Shown here in pieces: positions 31,866-38,868 of a DNA stretch of 64,000 nt; position 1 is the stretch's first letter; each line of letters opens with the position of its first letter. The notes beneath the pieces were generated by a model that had not been told where the DNA came from, searched no databases, and saw nothing but the letters and a program-made list of their open reading frames with translations. The stretch is taken from contig JANXDC010000015.1 in NCBI GenBank assembly GCA_025059945.1, positions 1-64,000 of the forward strand, given 5' to 3'. This DNA is from Bacteroidota bacterium (GTDB lineage: Bacteria; Bacteroidota; Rhodothermia; JANXDC01). The position numbers and the translations under genes are program-made.

Positions 31866-32180
31866 ATGGCCGAGACACCGCCGCCACAAGAGCTCAGCTT
31901 GGAGATCAGCCCCGAAGTAGCCGAGGGCACCTATGCGAACTTGGCTATGATCGCGCACTCACCCTCGGAGTTCATCCTGGACTTCATCCGGCTCATGCCC
32001 GGCATGCCCCAGGGGCGCGTTAAGGCGCGGATCATCCTAACGCCGGATCACGCCAAACGGCTGCTGGCCGCGCTACGGGAGAACATCGAGCTTTACGAGC
32101 GCCAATACGGGCCGATCCGAGATCCGGGGGCTGGGCCGGAATGGCCGACTGTCCTACGGGGCCCCCTGCCCGAGGCCTAG
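31866..32180 (+). CDS. DUF3467 protein
   Basis: A 104-aa soluble protein. [21 protein letters not shown] and [20 protein letters not shown] are the two conserved blocks of DUF3467, a small family of unknown role common in Bacteroidota and Deltaproteobacteria. It lies 11 bp after the CBS-like gene, so probably co-transcribed. Its stop shares CTAG with the convergent hslU. Confidence 0.88.
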
Positions 32181-33556
32181 AGGATATAGCGGCTCAGATC
32201 CCGATTCTCCAAGACGCGCCCCACGGTGCGCTGCACATGCGCTACGTCGATGCGCACGCGCGCATCTCGGATGCGGTCCGGCACGTCAAAAAGCACCTCC
32301 TCCAGGACCGTAGTCAGGATCGTGTGCAGCCGCCGAGCGCCGATGTTTTCGACCTGCTCGTTGACGCACGCGGCGATGCGGGCGATCTCCCGCAGAGCCT
32401 CATCGGTGAACTCGAGCTCCACACCCTCGGCCGCCAGCAGGGCCGCGTACTGCTTGGTGAGCGCGTTTTGGGGCAAGGTGAGAATCTGGTAGAAGTCCTC
32501 CTCGCCGAGGGGCTTAAGCTCCACCCGAATCGGGAAGCGCCCCTGAAGCTCCGGAATCAGGTCGCTGGGCCTGACCGCATGAAAGGCGCCCGAGGCGATA
32601 AACAAGATGTGATCCGTCTTAACCATGCCGTATTTGGTCATCACGTTCGAGCCCTCGACGATCGGGAGCAGATCGCGCTGCACGCCCTCCCGGCTCACGT
32701 CTGGGCCCGCCCCGCGGGGTGCGCCGGCCGGAGAGGCGATCTTGTCGATCTCGTCGATGAAGATGATCCCCGCGTTTTGAACCCGCTCCAGGGCTTCCTG
32801 GATGACGGCATCCATGTCGATGAGCTTTTGCGCCTCCTCTTGGGCCAATAGCTGCCGGGCCTCGGAGACGGGCAGCCGGCGCTTTTTGCGGCGCCTACCC
32901 AGGTTGCCCAAGATCTCCTGCAGGTTAAGACCCATCTCCTCAAGGCCCATGGGACCGAAAATCTGCATGACGGGGCCGTGTTCGCTTGTGACCTCGATCT
33001 CCACCAGACGATCCTCTAGCTCCCCGGCCTTAAGGCGCTCCCGAAAGCGGACCCGGGCGTGATCCTCCAGCTCCCCCCAGCCGGAGGCCGGTAGGCCCTC
33101 GGGGGACGGACCGGAAAAGGCGAACCCAGTGCCCGGCCGGGGCACGAGCACATCCAGCAGCCGCTCGTCGGCCAGCTCCAAGGCCTGCGCCTGAACCTCG
33201 CGCTGACGCTCGGCTTTGACCATGTTTACGGCCACCTCCACCAGGTCGCGTACCATGCTTTCGACGTCTCGACCCACATAGCCCACCTCGGTGAACTTGG
33301 TGGCCTCCACCTTCACAAACGGAGCCCCGGCCAGTTTGGCCAACCGACGCGCGATTTCGGTCTTGCCCACCCCCGTCGGGCCGATCATGATGATGTTGTT
33401 GGGCACGATCTCCTCCCGCAACTCCGGGGGAGCGTTCAAACGGCGCCACCGGTTGCGCAGGGCTATGGCTACGGCGCGCTTGGCTTCCTGCTGGCCCACG
33501 ATGTATTTGTCCAGCTCGGCTACGATTTGGCTCGGCGTGAGCGCCTGTAGATCCAT
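32177..33556 (-). CDS. hslU: ATP-dependent protease ATPase subunit HslU
   Basis: AAA+ unfoldase of the HslUV proteasome-like protease. The 459-aa protein has Walker A GPTGVGKT (about 59-66), the substrate-gripping pore loop GYVGRD, an I domain (about 110-230), Walker [10 protein letters not shown] and sensor [18 protein letters not shown]. The C-terminal LSRYIL tail is the type that docks into HslV. It lies 57 bp downstream of hslV. The longer gap suggests coupling within one transcript but not translational overlap. Confidence 0.97.
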
Positions 33557-33613
33557 ATGTCTTTTACGCTTTGATGCTTTGCTCGTTGGGGAAAAACCCT
33601 CTGCGGATACGGC

Positions 33614-34168
33614 CTACGAAGAGGCAAGTTCCAAGACGCGTATCTCGTGGTTGGTGTAAATGCAGATGTCCGCTGCGATGTGCAAGGCGCGCTCCACGAT
33701 GAGGCGCGCCGGCAAATGCGAGGCCTCCTGTTTTAACGCCCGGGCGGCGGCCAAGGCATAGCCGGCTCCGCTGCCGATGGCCAGGATCCCATCGTCGGGC
33801 TCAACCAGGTCCCCTGCACCCGAAAGCAGCAACATTTGCTCCGCGGTGGCTACGATCAACATAGCCTCCAGACGCCGCAGGGCCCGGTCCAGACGCCAAT
33901 CTCGGGCCAATTCCACGGCCGCCCGCGGCAGGTTGCCTCCATACATCTGGAGCTTGTCCTCGAGCCGATCCAGAAGCGTGAGCGCGTCGGCCGTTGAGCC
34001 GGCAAAGCCAGCCAAAATTTTGCCGCTGTATAATGGCCGCACCTTCTGCGCGGTGTGCTTGAGCACGGTCTGTCCTAAGGTGGCCTGCCCATCGCCCCCC
34101 ATGGCCACTCTGCCTCCATGCCGTACGGCCAGCACGGTGGTGGCGTGCAGTATGTTGCTTTGCCTCAT
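33614..34168 (-). CDS. hslV: ATP-dependent protease peptidase subunit HslV
   Basis: Threonine peptidase of the HslUV complex. The 184-aa precursor has an 8-9 residue propeptide (MRQSNILHA). Autocleavage would expose the catalytic Thr of [28 protein letters not shown] and [14 protein letters not shown] are conserved. It sits 17 bp after the hybrid kinase gene and upstream of hslU, so a kinase-hslV-hslU transcript is likely. Confidence 0.96.
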
Positions 34169-34185
34169 GCGGTCCCCAACCCCCT

Positions 34186-37100
34186 CTAGCTAGCTTCTTC
34201 AAGCCAGCTCAGGACCTGGCGGGGCTGAAAGGGCTTAACCAACAACCCGTCGAAGCCGGCCGCGCGTAAGCGGTCTTCCAGTCCGGACTCCGCGTAAGCC
34301 GCTAGCGCCAGCATACGCCCCCGAAACCTTAGCTGACGCACCTGCTTTCCCAGGGTGATCCCGACCTCGAACGCCTCGGGCGTTAACTCCACGAACACGG
34401 CATCGTACTGCCCGCTCGTAAGCGCCTCCAGAAGATCAGCCGGCTTATCGCACACCTGCACGGAAAAGCCCGCCCGCCTAAGCAACACCTCTAGATAACG
34501 CCGGCCCTCCGGATCGGATTCCATAAGCAGCGCCCGACGCGCCTTGGGCTGCCAGAAAACAGGGGGGACGGGTTCGGAGGCGACGGGCAGGTGCACGGAA
34601 AAGGTCGCGCCCCGGCCAGGCTGACTTTGACAGCGCAGCTCGCCGCCCATGCTGCGCACCAGGCGATAGCTGATGGCCAATCCCAGCCCGGCTCCCTCAA
34701 AGGGCCGATTCAAACCCTCGTGAGCCTGCTCGAAGGGCCTAAACAGACGCTCCAGATGCTCCGGCTCTATGCCCACCCCGGTATCCGAAACCGCGATCAC
34801 CAGCCTGTCGCCTTCGCGTCGGGTGGAAACCTGAACAGAGCCCGAGGAGGTAAACTTGATCGCGTTCTCTATCAGATTGAGCAACACTTGGATGAGGCGG
34901 CCGCCGTCTACATACACAAGCGTGCGCTCGGTGTGCAGCCTCAGTTCATAGAGGAGTCCTTTTTCGCGCGCCCTGGAAGCCAAGGTGGCAAAGGCCTCTT
35001 GCACAAGGGGTTCTGCGGGTTGCACTTCGCAGACAAGCTCCAGATCGCCGGCCTCGATTCGGGCCATATCCAGCAGCTCATGGACCAGATGCACCAGGCG
35101 CTGGGCGCTTCGGTGCACGACGGCGAAAAACTCCTCCACCTCCGGCTTGCCTTCGGAGGCCAGCTCCTCGCGGATCAGATCCAAATAGCCCAAGATCGTA
35201 TGTAGCGGGGTGCGGAGCTCATGTGAGATCATGGCCAGAAAGTTTGACTTGATGCGGTTGGCCATCTCCGCCCGTTCCTTGGCCTCACGCAGGGCCGCTT
35301 CGGCTCGCTTGCGCTCCGTCACATCGCGCACGAGGGCCATAACGCGCCCGTCGTCAAGCATGACGGCCGTGACTTCGTAGTCGAAGAGCGTTCCGTCTTT
35401 GCGGCGCATTCGCCGATCGGCGCCCCGGAAGATGCGGACCTGACGCAAAAACGGATAGAAGTGCTCTCGATAACCCCGGTTCAACGCCTCGCGATCCCCC
35501 ACAACGAGATCCCCAACGGTCATCGCGAGCAGTTCCTGGCGGCTGTAGCCCGTAAGCAACTCGGCCTGGCGATTGACCTCCACGTAACGCCCTCCTGCAT
35601 CGGAGATCAAGATGGCATCTCCGGCGGATTCAAAGAGCATCCTGTAACGCCGCTCGCTGGCTTCTAGGGCCGCCTCCATGTGCTTGCGGTCCGTGATGTC
35701 CCGGCTGATCACGTCGAAGCCCACAAGCTGCCCGCCTTCGGTACGCAACGTAGCGTTTTGGCCCACCCATCGCACCTGACCCGTGCGATCTCGCACCGGA
35801 TATTCGCTGTACCAGTGGGGCGTGCGGGCCCGGACGTGCCGAATCGCCTCGGCGCGGGCGCGCCAGTAGTGGCTGGGCTCGATGAAGTCGAAGATTCGGC
35901 GGCCTATGGCCTCTTCGCGGGTGTAGCCGAAAAGCCGCAGCGCCGCCTCGTTGGCGTACAAGAGGCGGCCCTCTAGATCGACCTGATAGATGAGATCGGA
36001 GGCGTTTTCCACAAACCGCGTAAGCCGCCCTTCAAGGGTTCGGCGCTCATGCTCCTCAAGCAGGCGCACTAGGCGTTCGGCCGAGGCGACGGCGAACCGA
36101 ACCTCATCGGCGTGCCACGTGCGGGGTGAGGCGGCGCGCAGCTCCGAGCACAGGACCCCCATGAGACGGCCCTCCCGCCATACCGGGGCATCCAGCATGG
36201 CCCGGATGCCGAGGGGCTTTAGGTAGCCTTCCAGGAAAGCCCGCGTGCGGGGGTCGGTCCATGCATCGGCCGCATCCACGGCCAGACCGGTTTGCAAAGC
36301 CCAGAAGTACTCCGGATAGGCGGAAGCGGAAAGCACCTGCTCACAGGCTACGCGTCCGCCCTGGGCTTGATCGAAGAGGGCCATGCAACGCAGGGCATCC
36401 TGCTGAGGATCCCAAAGCCAAAACCCGCATCGGTCTACCGTCAAGGCCTGCGCGGTACGCTCCAAAAGCGCATACAGGCTCTCGGGCCAATCCTGAGCCG
36501 AAAGCCGGGTCATCGCGAGCAGGGCCTGACGCTGACGCTCCAGGCGTTCCGATCGCAGCCGTTCCTCGGTGACATCCCGCTGTATACCCAGATGGCCCAG
36601 ATAACGGCCCCCTTCATCGTATAGGGGAATGTACTCCCCCTCAATCCAGATCGGTCTTCCGTCAAGCCGGCGCTCGTAGCTTAGGCCGCGCAGGTAGCCC
36701 GCGTCCAGCATTCGGCGCGTATAGTCCCGGATAAAACCCGGATCATGGGCGTAAAAATCCGCCGATGTGCGACCAATCAGGGCCTCTTCTGTGGTGCCGT
36801 ATTGTTCAGCGAAATTGCGATTGACGCGCACAACGCGCTGCCGATACAGGGCGCGTTCGAGCTGCTCTTCGGATCCGTCCCAGATGAACTCCCAGCCCGG
36901 ATCCATGCGCATCAGGTACAGGCCTGCGATGCTTTGCCGGAAGAGAAACTCCAGGACGCGCTCCTGCAGGCGGCCTGTCCAGTCCTGATCTTCCTTGCGC
37001 TCGCGCAGCTGTAGTAGCAGCGCGGCCCTTCGGCCCAGGCGAACCCGGCTGGGATACATCCAAACCGCCCATGTGGACCCATCTCGGCGTTGCAGCTGAC

Positions 37101-37338
37101 GGGCAAGCCGTTCGATGGGGAAGCGCGCTAAAGCCCGGTAGGCCAGCCGCAAATCCTCCGGCCGAACTAACGGGTCGAGCTCCTGTATGGGAAGACCGAT
37201 CAATTCCTCCGGCGCACATCCCAGGGCCTGACAAAGAGAGCGGTTTGCCCAGAGGATGCGGCCCTCAAGCGAACAAAGCAGCGCGGGTTCTGCTATCGAG
37301 GAAAATGGCACCTGAGAAGAGTCTGCACAGCTAGCCAT
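34186..37338 (-). CDS. Hybrid sensor histidine kinase (PAS-PAS-GAF-PAS-PAS-HisKA-HATPase-receiver)
   Basis: A 1050-aa soluble kinase with no membrane segment. Domains in order: PAS (about 10-115), PAS (125-265), GAF (285-430), PAS (440-560), PAS (570-690), HisKA with His706 in ISHELRTP, an ATP domain (about 810-930; N-box [25 protein letters not shown]) and a receiver-like tail (about 940-1050). In the receiver the phospho-acceptor position is Glu984 (AVFVEL) and one acidic-pocket Asp is Ser (MESDP), while the Lys (LLVKPF) remains. ATG 37338 is preferred over GTG 37374. The signal is unknown. Confidence 0.9.
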
Positions 37339-37410
37339 TGATGAGGAACACCCCGGCCGTGTTTGTCCCAACACCCAGAAGCTTGCTCAAGGCAAAGAGG
37401 ATGCGTAAAC

Positions 37411-37427
37411 TTTCGGTGGCGCCGAAA
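37411..37427. promoter_or_regulatory. Inverted repeat in the kinase/dipeptidase divergent region
   Basis: TTTCGG-tggcg-CCGAAA is a perfect 6-bp dyad with a 5-nt spacer, centred about 80 bp from the kinase start and 95 bp from the dipeptidase start in a 174-bp divergent gap. It could be an operator; no regulator gene is adjacent. Confidence 0.35.
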
Positions 37428-37512
37428 CTATCAAAAGCCGTTCCTTTGAAATGTGCTGCAGTGCGGCGACAACTCAAAACGGTTCAACCCCACGAGGCGG
37501 AAGAGGTTTCCC

Positions 37513-38868
37513 ATGATGCGCTGGTTAGGACTTGCCGGTCTAAGCCTGGCCTGCGGAGGCGATCCCCATCCGGCTTCTTCCGTTAAGGCCGACACGGGTA
37601 TTGTGCTGGCGATTCCGGCTCCGATCCGACACCCTAAAGCCGATAGCCTCATAGCGGCCGATCCGTTGTGGCGGCGGGCGCTTGAGATCCACTACCGGGC
37701 CATCGTCTTCGACGGGCATCACGACAGCCCCACGCTCATGGTCGACGGCGGCCAGGATCTCGTAGGGGCCTTCGGGGGGTACTTTCAAGGGCGCACCGAC
37801 TTGCCCCCGACGCGGCGCGGCTATGACTGGGGCTATCGCTACGCTCCGCCGCGGGTGCATACCGATCTGCCGCGCATGATCGAGGGCGGCCAGGATGCGC
37901 CGTTTCTGTCCATCTGGGTCGCCGCGGATTACGCCCGAACCCCGGGCGCCTCGGCCCGAAGGGCGCATCGGCTCATCGACACCGTTCTGGCCCAAATTCG
38001 GCGCCATCCGGACCGGGTCGAGCTGGCTACCTCCTATGAGGACGTGATCCGGATTGTGCGCTCCGGCAAAATCGCCGCCCTCATGGGGCTTGAGGGGGGG
38101 CATGCGCTGGAGAACAGCCTGGATACCCTGCGCTCTTTTTATCGCCGGGGGGTACGCTACGTCACGCTCACGCACACGAACACCAACGGCTGGTGCGATT
38201 CCTCCCAGGACACGGCCCGCTGGGGAGGGCTTAACGAACTGGGCCGGCAAATGGTGCGCGAGATGAACCGGCTTGGCATGCTCATCGACATCTCCCACAT
38301 CTCGGATGCCGCCTTGGAAGACGTGCTCGAGGTCACGGAAGCGCCCGTGATCGCTTCGCACTCCTCCTGTCGCGCGCTTACGCACATCCCGCGCAATCTC
38401 TCCGACGATCAGCTTCGGGCCATCGCGCGCAACGGGGGGGTGGTGATGATCAACATCGGCTCCGACTTCGTCAACCCCGCCTACACGGAGGCCTTCTGGC
38501 GGGCTGTAGCAGAGCGGGTCCGCACCCGGTATCGCGGGGACTTCCGCACCCGCATGTGGGTGGCGCTGCGGGAGGTTAAACAAGAGCAGGGCATAGGGGA
38601 ACCGACCTTGGAGGATGTGCTCGACCACATCGAACACGTCCGCCGCGTGGCCGGAGTCGACCACGTAGGCTGGGGCACGGACTTCGACGGCGTGCCCAGC
38701 CTGCCCAAGGGGCTTGAAGACGTGACCAAACTGCCTTGGATCACCTATGGCCTGCTGAAGCGGGGTTGGAGCGAGGAGGAGATTTACAAGTTCTGGGGAG
38801 CAAACGTGCTGCGGGTCATGCGCCAGGCGGAAGCCGTGGCCCGACGGCTGCAGGCGGAGGGACGGTAA
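37513..38868 (+). CDS. Membrane dipeptidase lipoprotein (peptidase family M19)
   Basis: Zinc-dependent renal-dipeptidase-like enzyme that hydrolyses dipeptides. The 451-aa precursor has a short signal with lipobox LSLAC (Cys14), so it is probably anchored in the outer or inner membrane. Metal-ligand motifs DGHHDSP, LMGLEGGHAL, IDISHISD and IASHSSCRAL are in place. ATG 37513 has GAAGAGG about 7 nt upstream. The next gene starts directly after its stop. Confidence 0.92.
   Translation: MMRWLGLAGLSLACGGDPHPASSVKADTGIVLAIPAPIRHPKADSLIAADPLWRRALEIHYRAIVFDGHHDSPTLMVDGGQDLVGAFGGYFQGRTDLPPTRRGYDWGYRYAPPRVHTDLPRMIEGGQDAPFLSIWVAADYARTPGASARRAHRLIDTVLAQIRRHPDRVELATSYEDVIRIVRSGKIAALMGLEGGHALENSLDTLRSFYRRGVRYVTLTHTNTNGWCDSSQDTARWGGLNELGRQMVREMNRLGMLIDISHISDAALEDVLEVTEAPVIASHSSCRALTHIPRNLSDDQLRAIARNGGVVMINIGSDFVNPAYTEAFWRAVAERVRTRYRGDFRTRMWVALREVKQEQGIGEPTLEDVLDHIEHVRRVAGVDHVGWGTDFDGVPSLPKGLEDVTKLPWITYGLLKRGWSEEEIYKFWGANVLRVMRQAEAVARRLQAEGR

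Follow-up and report, generated by a model that had tools for sequence, protein, structure and literature searches.

A hybrid histidine kinase with glutamate at the phospho-acceptor position of its C-terminal pseudo-receiver in a Bacteroidota bacterium

CikA of Synechococcus elongatus is built in the order GAF domain, kinase and C-terminal pseudo-receiver. A pseudo-receiver is also found in the hybrid kinase ShkA of Caulobacter crescentus, whose two receivers are joined by a linker with a DDR motif (PMC7010744); in both CikA and ShkA, the pseudo-receiver inhibits autophosphorylation (PMC12632262). The C-terminal receiver of VirA, from Agrobacterium tumefaciens, is thought to act outside a phosphorelay; it binds the DNA-binding domain of VirG, a result consistent with the recruitment of VirG (PMC4705274). 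According to PMC4395418, up to 4% of receivers have no acceptor Asp, and PMC12632262 names Glu at the Asp position, Ala at the Thr position and Arg at the Lys position as common pseudo-receiver replacements; the mechanisms by which these bacterial domains are switched on or off “remain a mystery” in the words of the latter source.

We compared with these systems a gene found in a window of 64,000 nucleotides (the whole stretch of DNA that was analysed) from a Bacteroidota bacterium. The gene covers positions 34186-37374 of the minus strand and codes for 1062 aa from a GTG start; the in-frame Met13, at 37338, is an alternative start, and as an earlier, sequence-only reading of the region (34186-37338) began at this Met, its Glu984 and His706 are Glu996 and His718 here. 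Pfam gives the domain order PAS-PAS-GAF-PAS-PAS-HisKA-HATPase-receiver (Table 1), and the presence in one chain of HisKA with its His, of the ATPase domain and of a receiver makes the protein a hybrid histidine kinase. By this layout it resembles CikA, from which it differs by its four PAS domains. The phospho-acceptor His718 (CAT) lies in the motif SHELRTP, and the catalytic ATPase region contains a 15-residue motif as well as GAGLGL. As for a family name, only a generic PAS model scored above its cut-off among the best 25 of 96 NCBIfam families. The receiver, the sole match to this domain within the window, scores 34.3 bits with PF00072 (Pfam curated cut-off 30.2) and is the weakest of the 30 Pfam receiver matches of its genome.

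Table 1. Features of the hybrid kinase gene, in window coordinates.
Feature	Position	Strand	Basis or remark
N-terminal part, two PAS domains, aa 1-286	36517..37374	-	no counterpart in congener orthologue
GAF domain region, about aa 287-440	36055..36516	-	Pfam match 298-435
Third and fourth PAS domains, about aa 445-692	35299..36042	-	Pfam and orthologue alignment
HisKA/DHp region, aa 701-776	35047..35274	-	Pfam match 709-776
Catalytic ATPase region, aa 777-935	34570..35046	-	Pfam match 824-932
C-terminal pseudo-receiver, aa 949-1058	34201..34530	-	Pfam PF00072, predicted fold, fold searches
Pocket acid pair, here Glu952 (GAA)-Ser953 (TCC)	34516..34521	-	receiver alignment and codons
Glu996 (GAG), phospho-acceptor Asp position	34387..34389	-	receiver alignment, model, codons
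Ala1025 (GCG), conserved Thr/Ser position	34300..34302	-	receiver alignment and codons
Lys1047 (AAG), conserved Lys kept; Arg in orthologue	34234..34236	-	receiver alignment and codons

A functional phospho-receiver has an acceptor Asp, two pocket acids, a Thr/Ser and a Lys, and three of these positions are occupied here by Glu996, Ser953 and Ala1025. Glu at the acceptor position, Ser for one pocket Asp and a conserved Lys had already been noticed in the sequence-only reading, and the alignment, the structure model and the codons bear it out for Glu996 as the alignment does for Ser953 and Lys1047; it had overlooked Ala1025 in place of the switch Thr/Ser and Leu1044 at the K-3 position, where an aromatic residue is usual. 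The column of Glu996 holds Asp in the 28 other receivers that the alignment takes from the two genomes compared. A misalignment concealing another acceptor, which that reading had named as the finding that would speak against it, is ruled out by the receiver alignment and the model, as no other Asp fits: Asp991 is found at the start of strand 3, and Asp954 occupies the third place in the pocket loop. A sequencing error is ruled out as well, since the orthologue described below carries the same Glu. The domain, a receiver by profile with its acceptor Asp replaced by Glu in both species, is an aspartate-less receiver, i.e., a new example of a described and fairly common class. It shares with this class the Asp-to-Glu replacement and the loss of the second pocket Asp, and Thr-to-Ala and Lys-to-Arg changes are also common there (PMC4395418, PMC12632262); we noted no class-defining difference, the domain being C-terminal in a hybrid kinase.

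The sole orthologue found belongs to another species of the genus (G001, the only other genome compared of the same family and order, the order comprising two genomes). It has the same gene order, flanked by an M19 dipeptidase gene and hslV-hslU as in the window, and is 62% identical to the window kinase over residues 275-1059 (65% in the GAF region), without the first two PAS domains; the gap upstream of it (L130 7122-7602), of about 480 nt, is too short for two PAS domains. Behind the two orthologues, the highest-ranking match in 145 genomes of the class (E up to 1e-60) covered residues 449-1059 at 37% identity, and shorter matches reached 50% identity; a scan of genome contigs gave 41 loci that were 22-37% identical. 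The receiver of the orthologue has a Glu-Pro pocket pair, a Glu acceptor position, the switch Thr, Arg for Lys and Leu at K-3, and is thus devoid of the acceptor Asp, the second pocket Asp and the Lys. The comparison with orthologous kinases that had been proposed as a check returns the same Glu, and the acceptor Glu is conserved between the two species while other catalytic residues differ.

This pattern bears on the idea that Glu996 mimics phospho-Asp, locks the domain in its active form and permanently engages a partner. The idea gains from the frequency of Glu, which replaces Asp more often than any other residue in aspartate-less receivers (26%, PMC4395418), from the partial activation of many true regulators by Glu at the acceptor position (PMC12632262), and from the presence of Glu in both species together with Lys1047 in the window protein. 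Such mimicry, however, perhaps works through binding of the conserved Thr and Lys (PMC12632262), and this switch is broken differently in each species: Thr is Ala in the window protein, Lys is Arg in the orthologue, and K-3 is Leu in both. Moreover, ChxR still bound DNA in vitro after its Glu had been exchanged for Asp or Ala, as stated in PMC4395418. We, thus, regard a constitutively “on” receiver as rather unlikely; the phospho-mimicry suggested by the sequence-only reading is possible, but less supported than had been supposed. The other part of that suggestion, a scaffolding module rather than a phosphorelay step, is supported as far as a sequence can support it, three catalytic residues being gone in each species.

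To see how rare this configuration is, one has to keep in mind that our receiver census was based on a profile built from 22 mostly canonical receivers and is, therefore, no fair sample of degenerate ones. It holds 131 receiver rows, retained from 230 domain hits after removal of exact duplicates and of rows with more than 25 gaps in 110 columns: 31 from the genome itself, 33 from the congener, 31 from the same class and 36 from remote relatives. A few truncated duplicates are included; the first two counts exceed the Pfam matches (30 and 32) because overlapping loci left truncated copies. Glu occupies the acceptor position in two rows only, those of the window kinase and its orthologue; Asp occupies it in 128, and Ala in one remote row (L097). 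As up to 4% of receivers times the 26% quoted above amounts to about one receiver per hundred, one such domain among the 30 or so of a genome is unsurprising. The census also contains a second partly degenerate receiver of G001 (L159, locus match 1501-1845) with Val for the conserved Lys and the acceptor Asp kept, and the first receiver of a two-receiver hybrid kinase with Hpt (L025, G000:C2:13604-13948) with Arg for Lys, a change that is not listed for its G001 counterpart.

The five-fold beta-alpha fold of receivers is found in the AlphaFold2 model of the domain (mean pLDDT 94.1, pTM 0.87), which was built from an alignment in which 28 of the 30 receivers have Asp, a mostly canonical input that favours that fold. 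In the modelled segment, which starts at residue 936, strands run over positions 12-16, 36-39, 57-62, 85-90 and 108-111, and Glu996 (61), Ala1025 (90) and Lys1047 (112) lie where strands 3, 4 and 5 end or just past that point. Against solved receivers, the best Foldseek E was 1.1e-07 and the best VIA-align Z 18.4 (117 residues, 1.9 A). Structures of CikA and ShkA are absent from the 50 rows listed of each fold search, an absence that means little. By sequence, the best of the 60 listed of 86 PDB matches was 6qrj, a “Hybrid kinase” that we take to be ShkA, the match being to its last receiver; no chain labelled CikA was among these 60.

A receiver that has lost catalytic residues could simply be decaying, the kinase signalling without it. 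Of the 30 receiver pairs that are reciprocal best matches between the two genomes (at least one pair being a truncated repeat), it is indeed the most diverged, at 43.8% identity, compared with 71% for HisKA and 67% for HATPase of the same two proteins, and the orthologue receiver falls below the Pfam cut-off in the protein scan (29.3 bits against 30.2; 33.8 bits in the genome search). Yet neither species has a stop or a frameshift in the gene, the fold is predicted with confidence, helix 1 and the few columns of helix 5 are conserved, and pN (0.38) is about half of pS (0.70), with synonymous sites near saturation, which we read as signs of purifying selection on the receiver. Decay without any current role seems unlikely to us.

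Receivers dock on the DHp of the kinase with a face to which helix 1 contributes. Mutants whose PDB titles describe them as rewiring the RR468-HK853 interface are changed at RR468 residues 13-21, which are residues of helix 1. In the kinase receiver, helix 1 is identical between the two species at 11 of 14 positions, against 35 of 91 elsewhere (Fisher P 0.0055, uncorrected and for a helix chosen post hoc; P 0.12 for the best 14-column segment of the receiver in a shuffle test). This excess is the largest among the 30 reciprocal-best pairs, in an exploratory comparison where highly conserved pairs leave small room for any excess.

We favour, with moderate confidence, an active kinase whose C-terminal pseudo-receiver is a phosphorylation-independent regulatory domain docking on the DHp or on a partner. 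The multi-PAS/GAF sensor kinase would autophosphorylate on His718, from which the phosphate would go to a separate, putative response regulator; the pseudo-receiver, probably unable to accept phosphate, would use mainly helix 1 to dock on the DHp of the same protein or on a partner, and may thereby restrain or steer autophosphorylation and phosphotransfer. This proposal is based on the kinase motifs, on the loss in both species of receiver catalytic residues that are not all the same, on the fold (pLDDT and Z above) and constraint (pN below pS), on the conservation of helix 1 alongside the RR468-HK853 mutants, and on the precedents of CikA, ShkA and VirA. Against it, we count that there are two orthologues only, that the lowest pair identity also fits decay, that the helix-1 signal is exploratory, that the input to the structure model was mostly canonical, and that a second receiver domain is absent from the window.

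ShkA suggests a variant in which the pseudo-receiver senses a small molecule that relieves inhibition, since that hybrid kinase shows a pseudo-receiver to be capable of acting as an input domain (PMC7010744). The sensing domain of ShkA, however, lies between the kinase and a second, working receiver, whereas that of the window comes last, and c-di-GMP control as in ShkA is unlikely because GGDEF proteins were matched in neither of the two genomes, by a search that was positive in 8 of 14 control genomes. Ligand sensing, thus, appears very unlikely here.

The stop codon of the kinase gene is separated by 17 nt from the start of hslV, and hslV and hslU (32177-34168) follow on the same strand, so that co-transcription of kinase and hslV is plausible; a scan of 33500-37600 gave no promoter-like and one terminator-like site, both below the shuffled means (1.2 and 4.0), a result that is uninformative. 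Although hslV was present in all 60 genomes searched, with at least 30 loci, a kinase relative beside it (tblastn E up to 1e-5 within 1.5 kb) was seen only in the loci of the two congeners among the 30 examined; the 28 other loci of the class had none, and a class-wide link was rejected. A combined proposal, in which the pseudo-receiver is a cis regulator keeping chiefly its DHp-docking helix and the gene cluster ties the kinase to the control of the HslVU protease, is in our opinion highly improbable. Pfam named seven of the eight neighbouring genes scanned (proteasome-type hslV, hslU AAA, M19 dipeptidase, two PLP enzymes, a glycosyltransferase and MutS), none of which suggests a signalling partner, and the window has no second receiver domain, so that no partner is at hand; Hpt domains gave two matches in each of the two genomes. 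The partner response regulator is putative here; VirA differs in having a known partner, VirG, and in having kept its acceptor Asp (D766).

By analogy with CikA, ShkA and VirA, the most likely role of the pseudo-receiver is docking or gating. Alone, it alters no existing picture and is ordinary in kind; the two orthologues, in which Glu is kept while other catalytic residues differ, offer a modest natural test of Glu as a phospho-mimic.
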